In this document: piece by piece, positions 15,702 to 19,431 of the stretch
Layout of the letters: each line of letters begins with the position of its first letter
How positions within the stretch are numbered: position 1 is the stretch's first letter
Assembly: GCA_903868125.1 (NCBI GenBank)
Contig: CAIPUE010000002.1
Coordinates: 1 to 64,000, forward strand
DNA: 64,000 bases
Origin: an uncultured bacterium
GTDB lineage: Bacteria; Cyanobacteriota; Vampirovibrionia; Gastranaerophilales; Gastranaerophilaceae
Direction of reading: 5' to 3'
The notes under the pieces: model-generated
The model's input: the letters and a program-made list of their open reading frames with translations, nothing else
Told to the model about the DNA's origin: nothing
The model's database searches: none
Program-made: the position numbers and the translations under genes

Positions 15702-16967
15702 CTAAATCGTATCAAATCCGGTATAAGGCTGTAAAACTCTAGGGATTTTTATTGTTCCGTCTTCTTGCTGAAAATTTTCGATTATTGCCGCAAAAGCTCT
15801 ACCTACAGCTACTCCTGAGCCGTTTATGGTGTGCACGAATTGGGTTTTGCCCGAAGATTTTTCTCTATACCTTATATTTGCACGCCTTGCCTGATAATCT
15901 CCGAAATTTGAACAGCTTGAAATCTCCTTGTAACCGTTATATGACGGCATATAAACCTCCAAATCGAAACATTTATTTGCCGAAAATCCCATATCTGCCG
16001 TACAAAGTTCAAGCCTTCTGTAGGGCAATTCCAGCAATTCCAAAACTTTTTCTGCGTTTTTTGTCAGTTTAAGGTGCTCATCATGGCTGGTTTCAGGTGT
16101 TGTAAGCTTTACTAATTCTACTTTGTTGAATTGATGCACTCTAATAAGACCTCTTGTGTCCTTGCCCGCAGAACCGGCTTCACGTCTAAAGCAAGGAGTG
16201 TAAGCCGTCATGTACTTAGGTAAATCTTCTTCTGCCAATATTTCGCTCTGATAAATATTTGTAACGGGAACTTCTGCGGTGGGAATCATGTATAGGTCTT
16301 CATTTTCGCATTTGTACATGTCTTCTGCAAATTTCGGCAACTGCCCTGTTCCAATCATGGCGGCAGAATTAACCAAAACGGGCGGCAAAATTTCCTCATA
16401 TCCGTGTTCTTTTGTATGAACATCAAGGAAAAAATTTATAAGCGCTCTTTCAAGCACGGCACCTTTTCCTCGGTATAAAATAAACCTTGATTGAGAAAGC
16501 TTAACTCCTCGTTCAAAATCCACAAGCCCTTTTTCTTCAACAATGTCCCAATGCGCTCTTAGCTCAAACTCGGCTTCGGTCGGTTCACCGCAACCGGATA
16601 CGATTTTGTTATCATTTTCAGATTTTCCGATTGGGGTAGTTTCGTTGGGAATATTTGGGATATTAAGCAATAAAGTTCTTTGTTGCTGATCAAGCTCAAC
16701 TTCTTTTTCTTCCAAGAATTTTATTTCATCACCGATTTTTCTAACATCTTCTTGTATTTCGTCAGTGTTTTCGCCCTGTTTTTTAAGCTCCCCGATTTTT
16801 TGAGATTCAATTTTTCTTTTTGCGCGAAGTTCGTCGGCTTGGGTTTGCATAGAACGGCGCTCAATATCTATTTGAATAACTTCGTTAATCGATAAATTTG
16901 GGTTTCTTCTTTTTAATAACTCGTTAATTTTTTCGGGATTTTCTCTAATTAATTTTATATCTAACAT
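15702..16967 (-). CDS. serS: seryl-tRNA synthetase
   Basis: A 421-residue class II aminoacyl-tRNA synthetase. It has an N-terminal coiled-coil tRNA-binding arm (about 25-105, rich in Lys/Glu/Gln), motif 2 in [20 protein letters not shown] with the following HQFNKVEL, and motif 3 in [16 protein letters not shown]. The length is standard for the bacterial enzyme. It is convergent with the decarboxylase gene, and no neighbour suggests an operon. Confidence 0.97.
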
Positions 16968-17137
16968 TTTTTATTTCTTTCTCTGTTTTTGTTGAGTGGA
17001 AGTAATACTTTCACACTTCTATATTCTATAAGAAAGATAAATATTTCGCAAATAAATTATTTTGTTTTAAATTTAATACATTTGTAAATTTTTTTACATT
17101 TTGAGCAATTTTTTTATTCAGGAACGTTGTATCTATT

Positions 17138-18231
17138 ATGAAAATAGTAAATTACGGCACACAGCAATATAACAATAAAACTAATACCGCTAAAACAAAG
17201 CCGTTTAAGGGGTATTTTGCCTGCCCAATAAAAGAACTCCATATTCAACCAACGCATGATGATGAAAATGCTATAATATTACTGAAAGAATTAAAAAAAA
17301 ATGCGGGAAATATTTCAAAATTATAGCTCAATTAGATGACAAGGTTACCGAGAATATTAGCGGACTTCAATTAAATCGGTGCGGTTGTATTCAAAATGCA
17401 AATCGAATAAAATGGGGGCAGGATAATAAATTATTTTTACCTGATGGAAAAACACTTGCAATTTTGAGAAAGTCCAAATCTTATAAAATTGCAGAAACAT
17501 TATCAAGAACATTAAGCATGCCTAAAATTGATATAAATATGCCCATAGAGGGTGGCAATTGTTTTTTAGGCAAAAAAACTTCAGGTGAATATTTTGCGTT
17601 AATTGGTAATAAAAATTTATGTGGCAATGATATACCATTTATTGCCAAACATTTAGGTATTAAAGGTGAAAATGTTCACTTAATTCCACAGCCTGATTTC
17701 CACATAGATTTAGGGATAAGACCGCTTAACTATCCTTATGTCTTGTTGGGCGACCGCAAACTAACCGCAAATTTAATATTAGCCAAATATAAGCTTGATA
17801 ATTCAACTAAATTATTAATTGAAACCGAAGGGAATTTTCTGCCACATGATTATGCCGGCATTGATAAAATCGAACATGAACTTAGACAAAAAATGTTTAT
17901 CCCCATTAGAGTGCCCGGCATTTTAGGAGATAATCAAGTTAATTATATGAATGCAATCGTCCATCAAGAATCAAAAGGCGATTTAATTTATATCACCAAT
18001 GATTGCCAACCATCTTGCTACAAAAATATTGATATAAATAGCTTATTTAAAGAATATTTAATGAAACAAGTACCTCAAATTAAAAAAGTTGAATTTATAA
18101 GTGGCGGTTCGAATAACAATAGTAACGCTTATGGAACTTATATGAATTTTGCCTTGGCTAGAACAGGTGGCGGGATCCACTGTATGACAAGTGAAAGACC
18201 TGATTTTGTAAAATGGAATGCAATGGCTTAG
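17138..18231 (+). pseudogene. guanidine-modifying (deiminase/amidinotransferase-like) gene split by a -1 shift at an A9 run
   Basis: Two adjacent frames make one protein of about 363 residues. The first runs 17138-17326; the second is open from about 17294 to the stop at 18231. The junction is a run of nine A at 17293-17301; one more A, or a -1 ribosomal slip there, would join the frames. The second part has the marks of the guanidino-modifying superfamily: GGNCFLG, FHIDLG (His-x-Asp) and a C-terminal GGGIHCMTSERP with the likely catalytic Cys. The N-terminus carries KPFKG (21-25), like other lineage-specific proteins here. It may be a pseudogene, a phase-variable gene or a programmed frameshift. 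Confidence 0.65.
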
Positions 18232-18242
18232 ATTGATTATTT

Positions 18243-19208
18243 TCAAGTTGCAAACAATGCCAGTTCAACCTCGTCAATATGATTAATGGATTGCCCCGAT
18301 TTAATTTTGTATTCCGCCTGAAGCAAATTTTGTTTCAAATCCACCAAATCCTTTAAAGACGTATCTTTCATCTTTTCTAAAGTAGTTTTGATAACAAATT
18401 CGTGTTGCCCCGTAAGCTTCGATATTTCAAACATAGACAATTCTTTTGATTTCGATTTCATTATAATCCATCTTCTGAGCATGGTTTGGACTGCAGCAAG
18501 AATTTCAAGCGGATGCTTTTTTTCCAAAAGTTTTTGGAACTCTAACAAAGCCTGTCCCTTGTTGCCTTTTAACAAAAAATCAGCAAACCCGAACAAATCC
18601 TCGTTTGAAATACAGATTTCTTTGACCATCTTTTTCGTTACAGTAGTTTTGGGATACGCCAAAAGTTTAAGTTTTTCGATTTCTTGAGAAAGTTGCCTTA
18701 AATTATTGCCAATCTGTTCAATTAAGGCTAAAGCCGCTTCTTTTTCAAAGATTATTTCGTGCTTTTTACCCTCTTTGTTAATCCAGTTTGAAATATCCTC
18801 AGTTTTATAAGTCCTAAATGTCGGGAATTCCTGCATTTGAGCTATTTTCGTAATTATTTTGTATATTTTTCTTCTGGAATCAACCTTTTTGCCCTCGTTT
18901 CTCGGCAAAATCGCCCTAAAAATTATGCAAAGACTTTCGATATTATTTTCAAGTGCGTTTGAAAGCTCCTCCAGCTGACTATCCTCAAAAGTTTTTGAAA
19001 AATAGTCCTCGCAATCGATTACTATCATCAAATTCCCAAACATCATAGGTTGAGTTCTTAAAAGAGAAATTAATTCGGGAAAAGATGGATTGTCGGCGGT
19101 TTTGAAATTCATTGATGCGAAATTTTTGTCAAGCAGCTTCTTTTTAAGCTTCTTAATCTCAAGTTCAATATTGTAATCTTCATCACCGTAGAAAAAATAA
19201 ATACTCAT
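18243..19208 (-). CDS. holA: DNA polymerase III subunit delta
   Basis: A 321-residue clamp-loader delta subunit that opens the beta sliding clamp. The N-terminal IYFFYGDEDYNIE corresponds to the FLYGDE-type start of HolA proteins, followed by a RecQ/AAA-like domain, the central TYKTEDISNWI helix region and a C-terminal collar domain. The length is normal. Like the alkD-like gene, its start codon abuts a copy of the 130-bp element, which supplies AGAGGTG at exactly 5-nt spacing. It is convergent with the deiminase-like gene, 11 bp apart. Confidence 0.88.
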   Translation of the reverse strand: MSIYFFYGDEDYNIELEIKKLKKKLLDKNFASMNFKTADNPSFPELISLLRTQPMMFGNLMIVIDCEDYFSKTFEDSQLEELSNALENNIESLCIIFRAILPRNEGKKVDSRRKIYKIITKIAQMQEFPTFRTYKTEDISNWINKEGKKHEIIFEKEAALALIEQIGNNLRQLSQEIEKLKLLAYPKTTVTKKMVKEICISNEDLFGFADFLLKGNKGQALLEFQKLLEKKHPLEILAAVQTMLRRWIIMKSKSKELSMFEISKLTGQHEFVIKTTLEKMKDTSLKDLVDLKQNLLQAEYKIKSGQSINHIDEVELALFAT

Positions 19209-19210
19209 AA

Positions 19211-19342
19211 GGGCACCTCTAAAAATACACTTTTCACGCTTTGTAAACCCCTCACCCCAACCCTCTCCCGCAAGGGGCGAGGGGGATTAGACCAATTTAT
19301 CTTTTGTCAACCATGGGCTTTATGGTGTTTTTAGAGGCGCCC
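19211..19342. mobile_element. 132-bp MITE-like element, copy 2
   Basis: Ends GGGCACCTCTAAAAATAC and GTGTTTTTAGAGGCGCCC are inverted with two mismatches. The interior carries the same C-rich/G-rich hairpin (CCCTCTCCCG-CAAG-GGGCGAGGG) and ATGGGCTTTATGGTG as copy 1 at 13734. It lies two bases upstream of the holA ATG. Confidence 0.85.
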
Positions 19343-19380
19343 ATAATTTATATCATAGAATAAACAAAATAATTTGTAAT

Positions 19381-19431
19381 AAGAGAATGCGGAAAAAATG
19401 ACAATTTTTTGCAATTTTTCCGCATTCTCTT
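19381..19431 (-). terminator. terminator overlapping the stop of the secreted-protein gene
   Basis: Perfect 17-bp arms (AAGAGAATGCGGAAAAA and complement) around a 17-nt loop. The right arm overlaps the TAA codon of the gene ending at 19430. Confidence 0.75.

Follow-up and report, generated by a model that had tools for sequence, protein, structure and literature searches.

A probable recent frame break at a nine-A tract in an accessory pentein-like gene of a Gastranaerophilales bacterium

Results and Discussion

A deiminase-like gene in the window (the whole 64,000-nucleotide stretch of DNA analysed here) is split over two open frames. We think it probable that this is a recent, unprogrammed frame break in an A tract, in an accessory and uncharacterised gene of pentein fold that is otherwise intact and perhaps leaky. 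A recent change in the length of the tract would have broken the frame of this pentein-family gene. The original prediction had put forward phase variation, a programmed -1 frameshift or a pseudogene, and among these the pseudogene reading, in the sense of a very recently frame-broken gene, fits best, while the programmed frameshift fails on conservation and on stimulatory structure.

The locus and its two open frames

The window belongs to a genome assembly of 1.89 Mb in 60 contigs (G000), presumably from a gut-type bacterium of the Gastranaerophilales. Between serS (15702-16967, minus strand) and a holA-like gene (18243-19208, minus strand), both named from reading of their translations, lies one plus-strand deiminase-like gene in two frames:

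17138-17326, plus strand: upstream ORF of 62 aa, from ATG 17138 to TAG 17324-17326; matches the family profile
17293-17301, plus strand: A9 tract, the point of frame loss, read from the sequence; the upstream frame also reads it as A AAA AAA
17266-18231, plus strand: second open frame, which holds the catalytic domain (W-x-Q-D, GGN, H-x-D, GGGIHC); matches the family profile

The sequence and the ORF coordinates bear out the earlier claim that two open frames meet at nine A. The downstream frame has 321 codons from stop to stop (stop at 18229-18231). Counted from the frame, it carries WGQD at 17413-17424, GGN at 17551-17559 and the two active-site elements already ascribed to it, HxD as HID at 17701-17709 and GGGIHC with its Cys at 18181-18183. 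The upstream ORF holds the N-terminal FKGY-x-A-x-P-(L/I)-K segment, with the first strands of the pentein fold and the beginning of its helix 1; the matching parts in the model of an intact relative (locus L093) are strands 8-11 and 16-22 and helix 27-40. As the alignment starts the downstream frame inside this helix, that frame alone lacks the first two strands.

Translation from 17138 would stop at the TAG and give a 62-aa peptide without the catalytic centre. In the downstream frame the earliest ATG, GTG or TTG is TTG 17464, located 3' of WGQD, so that an ordinary start never yields a product bearing this motif. Since the first frame ends at the TAG and the second has no ordinary start before WGQD, the gene is off at the DNA level. 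The downstream ORF could in principle be translated independently from TTG 17464 or from an ATG at 17518, but a separate functional gene of this kind is extremely improbable, as products from these two codons would be without WGQD, the first strands and the helix, and nearly all relatives have one ORF. A promoter scan gave 9 sites where 8.2 were expected, and upstream of 17138 the plus strand had none.

A general N-terminal FxG motif in the window genome was explored and set aside, as it was not convincingly enriched among 351 ORFs (11 occurrences in residues 5-70 and 28 in the rest). The density ratio was 1.47, and other variants of the pattern gave 0.65 to 2.49, the last on 2 versus 3 hits.

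The window gene is the only one split in its family

The window and 13 other genomes contributed 18 rows to a profile (A1), with which we searched 288 genomes belonging to the taxonomic family of the window. Members of the gene family were present in 83 of them, the window's genome included, with 113 matches. In the window genome the profile gave two adjacent matches, its positions 7-67 at 17108-17299 and 58-379 at 17269-18219, and a rescan of the open frames with the same profile placed the two window frames at 8-67 and 66-379. As both match consecutive, slightly overlapping parts of one family profile, the two frames are one broken gene.

DNA around matches lacking a locus was then added (72 regions), and all open frames of 153 loci were rescanned with profile A1. 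Out of 125 unique hit frames, two are those of the window, one is very weak (19 bits) and 122 are other family genes; among the resulting 123 unique family genes, the window gene alone is split into two frames. Multiple stops in relatives had been named beforehand as the mark of plain decay. This is not general in the family, as 115 of the 122 other genes have one open frame spanning profile positions 60-318 or more. Seven fall short of this span. L119 is a remote hit, and L107, L117, L180 and L230 are cut by a contig or locus end. L018 (1453-2301) is apparently missing an internal part, with the region of W-x-E-D and GGN absent, and seems damaged. In L099 (1-836), which lies close to the start of a contig, two in-frame stops immediately precede the open part, and this may be a second damaged copy of the family. 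Of 59 unique members scanned earlier as a subset, 52 combine W-x-(Q/E)-D, GGN, H-x-D and (H/D)C in a single frame, and 48 have the N-terminal F-x-G-(Y/L) segment.

The tract is no more conserved than the split. A/T runs of at least nine occur in the open frame of three of the 122 other family genes, and in two of these the run precedes the first possible start. The third, L210 (reverse strand, frame 451-1920), has two A9 runs at codons 25 and 376 of 490. Only L210 thus has such a run in its coding part, at another place and in frame, which means that the A9 site is not conserved; since L210 keeps both runs within an intact frame, an A9 run can also persist unbroken in the family. None of the examined family relatives has a run of at least nine at the window's site.

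These results bear on programmed recoding, by which a -1 ribosomal frameshift or programmed transcription slippage would make the full-length enzyme as a normal or regulated fraction. The slippery heptamer A AAA AAA stands in the zero frame at 17293-17299, the direction needed is indeed -1, and the catalytic frame is conserved. However, no other gene of the family is split, no stable structure is predicted downstream (17302-17420, z +1.41 in pseudoknot-free folding, 187 of 200 shuffles folding at least as well) and no Shine-Dalgarno-like stimulator was seen by eye just upstream. We regard programmed recoding as very doubtful.

Searches with other queries covered further ground. A scan of genome contigs with the single window protein found no relatives. 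With a second alignment (A2), 28 named family loci were recovered, 17 of them titled Candidatus Gastranaerophilales; viral contigs held no relatives of the family by this alignment and none of the neighboring serS. Adjacent family copies are found at L093 (3845-4810 and 4817-5785) and at L100, and further family loci include L092 (2393-3493) and L013 (373-2010). L013, L014 and L021 form a separate tree group without the FxGY segment, and L013 and L021 have, from reading of their sequences, an EF-hand-like N-terminal extension.

Gene neighborhoods were compared over 24 named loci and the window. Only two neighbors recurred in at least three loci: the holA-like gene (two loci and the window) and one other gene (three loci). 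A conserved holA neighborhood was set aside, as the window gene and the holA-linked family genes are not nearest relatives in the tree. A family member and a holA-like gene are separated by no more than a few kb at L110, L113, L008/L043 and in the window, in differing arrangements, and this proximity possibly reflects a hot spot or an old linkage.

Relationship to the pentein enzymes

The window protein is without a match in the curated collections. Neither piece matched Pfam at E up to 1; in NCBIfam the catalytic frame had no match at E up to 1, and the upstream piece gave only infC at E 0.024, a chance-level hit under the cut-off. PADLOC and PDB sequence searches with the downstream frame returned no matches, and PDB profile searches with the family gave insignificant hits only. 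When 18 and 27 family rows were scanned against Pfam and NCBIfam, the hits were weak and scattered, and any given Pfam family turned up in at most 2 of the 18 or 1 of the 27; the strongest was aRib in one row (E about 9e-6). PAD_porph (PF04371) appeared in 1 of the 18 A1 rows, at E 0.018, and in none of the 27 A3 rows at E up to 0.01.

Structure prediction was more informative. The intact relative L093 (3845-4810), modelled by AlphaFold2 with 26 further rows, reached a pLDDT of 90.3; the window protein folded alone gave 34.4, and the fold assignment rests on the L093 model. Foldseek ranked the agmatine deiminase of C. jejuni first for this model (E 1e-10) and human PAD4 second (E 1.3e-9). With VIA-align 2, residues 9-322 of L093 aligned to PAD4 with Z 22.2 (rmsd 3.3, 286 aligned), and to the C. 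jejuni enzyme with Z 20.5 (rmsd 2.9, 250 aligned); the Z to P. gingivalis PPAD was 20.4. By this model the family has the pentein propeller fold. The motifs W-x-Q-D, H-x-D and (H/D)C show conservation across the family and are present in the window's downstream frame; at the sequence level they fit the pentein active-site motifs as defined in the excerpt of PMC8826395. The family is PAD/agmatine-deiminase-like in its fold. Family membership, motif conservation and the predicted fold of the intact relative uphold the description of the gene as deiminase-like.

Absence of the gene from a same-genus genome

Only one same-genus genome (G001) was available in the sets searched. Its flanks of the locus are 93-97% identical to the window on both sides, and the gene is absent between them:

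17055-18251: stretch missing from G001; 1197 bp in the window versus 39 other bp in G001, on one contig

No match to the family was found anywhere in G001. The gene is therefore accessory, being absent from a same-genus genome at a contiguous locus. Beyond the holA-like gene, the window has a 49-bp palindrome-like intergenic stretch (19381-19429) that is absent in G001 and is either insertion-like or terminator-like; a dispersed intergenic repeat lies at about 19240-19346, with many partial copies over several G001 contigs.

A/T runs and quality of the assembly

Runs and frames were scanned in 397 kb of the window genome, a sample that includes the window, covers 21% of the genome and contains 351 ORFs. 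Seven A/T runs of at least nine lie wholly inside called ORFs, as compared to about 78 expected from codon shuffling, a depletion of about 11-fold. The window's A9 is not counted among the seven because the called ORF begins at 17464. According to the excerpt of PMC1088944, A/T runs are avoided, in many genomes once they reach nine, and this pattern is tied to slippage-prone, hypermutable tracts.

This depletion cuts both ways for phase variation, in which the tract length would vary at a high rate within the population and replication slippage would toggle the enzyme. The tract is situated early in the coding part of an accessory gene that is otherwise intact, and it stands out because long runs are avoided elsewhere in ORFs. 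On the other hand, the sampled 21% of the genome, with so few in-ORF runs, shows no sign of a set of contingency loci and, as described above, no examined relative has the run at this site. The tract itself would be the sole sign pointing to phase variation, which we consider unlikely. We are just as skeptical of the wider idea that the A9 is a functional switch, with tract-length variation or transcription slippage setting the dose of a PAD-like deiminase. If true, this would be a pentein enzyme subject to recoding or phase variation, of which we have met no description.

A single assembly or consensus error, with the organism's gene intact and the run length mis-called, is the next point to be weighed. 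A homopolymer is the classic site for such an error, the remainder of the window gene looks intact, and the excerpt of PMC3711429 expects that isolated frameshifts validated by BLASTp stem from sequencing errors in more cases than from true indels. A systematic homopolymer problem is nevertheless unlikely. In a comparison with 426 kb of G001, no frame break was found in 73 G001 proteins within the sampled G000 DNA, nor in 71 in the reverse direction, so this assembly is not rich in homopolymer errors. The scan for adjacent coding-like frames gave 98 pairs. In most of them the second frame has a start codon close to its beginning. Eight have no start within 30 codons: the window pair with its A9, three that are one tandem repeat (A-rich, unit of ~80 bp, at about 13150-13520 of L090 on contig C17 of G000) and four without a run (L072 15409, L078 647, L086 739 and L089 6769). 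The window pair is thus the only one of the 98 listed pairs that combines a run of at least nine with a missing downstream start. On balance, a mis-called run is a lesser possibility, although one to be taken seriously.

Intactness and age of the break

The catalytic frame is open throughout and neither gene piece contains an extra stop. The frame keeps 35 of the 36 strongly conserved positions that it covers (at least 85% conserved in the other rows), and in the sorted list of retention 40 of 53 rows stand below the window gene. The alignment for this count had 53 rows, drawn from 59 unique members with L013, L014, L018, L021, L099, L117 and L119 left out. The statement that no other inactivating change is present thus held up. 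By the usual marks of a pseudogene, the gene shows a frame-breaking lesion and none of the further decay expected as stops or lost active-site residues.

Under neutrality, about 50-59 stops per substitution/site are expected in both pieces together and, as there are none, the time spent under neutrality corresponds to d below about 0.05-0.06 substitutions/site (95%). The lack of stops fits a recent break and continued use alike. In the family tree (56 rows; L018, L099, L117 and L119 left out), the end branch of the window gene is among the longest, at 1.77, and because the window protein is such a long lone branch, dN/dS on its lineage is uninformative for selection.

The break is presumably a real mutation in this population, and presumably a recent one. 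A lesion in an A9 tract could revert easily. According to the excerpt of PMC5574713, insertions prevail when A/T runs are transcribed and become exponentially more frequent as the run lengthens. Some transcripts are expected back in frame, as a tract of nine A permits RNA polymerase slippage, and a low level of full-length enzyme might be made in this way without any programmed signal; slippage at this A9 would then make the break leaky. Several points weigh against a recent break, the two A9 runs in the intact frame of L210 among them. The tract is known from one genome only, so that an assembly error cannot be told from a population polymorphism; the intact remainder suits equally well a gene that is used via slippage or phase variation; and the view in the excerpt of PMC3711429, where isolated frameshifts are either errors or recent indels, favors error.

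If real, the recent break would offer a clean view of how gene loss begins at a slippage-prone tract, or of a silencing that can be reversed there, and the example would lie outside the obligate endosymbionts in which comparable cases were described. The kind of event is ordinary, and the greater interest is in the little-known enzyme family. The larger lead is this widespread, uncharacterised PAD/agmatine-deiminase-like family, without a convincing curated Pfam or NCBIfam match in the members scanned.

Comparison with known systems

Frameshifted but otherwise intact genes with poly(A) tracts in Blochmannia and Buchnera have reportedly been treated by Tamas (2008) and Wernegreen (2010). In literature searches on Gastranaerophilales/Melainabacteria and on PAD and pentein proteins, none of the titles and abstract openings listed dealt with this family or with such a switch there. 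The pentein enzymes (peptidylarginine deiminase, agmatine deiminase and the PPAD of Porphyromonas) share with the family the fold modelled for L093 and motifs of the Cys/His/Asp type. However, identity to PAD4, agmatine deiminase and PPAD in the structure alignments is only 13-16%, and the window protein has no curated match.

For the break itself, a close parallel is found in Blochmannia, where genes carry single frameshifts in poly(A) tracts (excerpt of PMC3017870). There, as is probable for the window, a single indel in a long A/T tract leaves a gene that is otherwise intact, and rescue by transcription slippage has been proposed. The Blochmannia and Buchnera cases concern obligate endosymbionts, with some of the affected genes serving replication, and in the three Blochmannia genomes 114-153 long poly(A) tracts lie within genes, whereas the window genome avoids such runs and the affected gene is accessory. 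The dnaX gene of Thermus thermophilus also has nine A on the coding strand (excerpt of PMC1088944). Its transcripts slip with high efficiency, so that two products are made, whereas slippage at the A9 of the window is putative and the site is not conserved.
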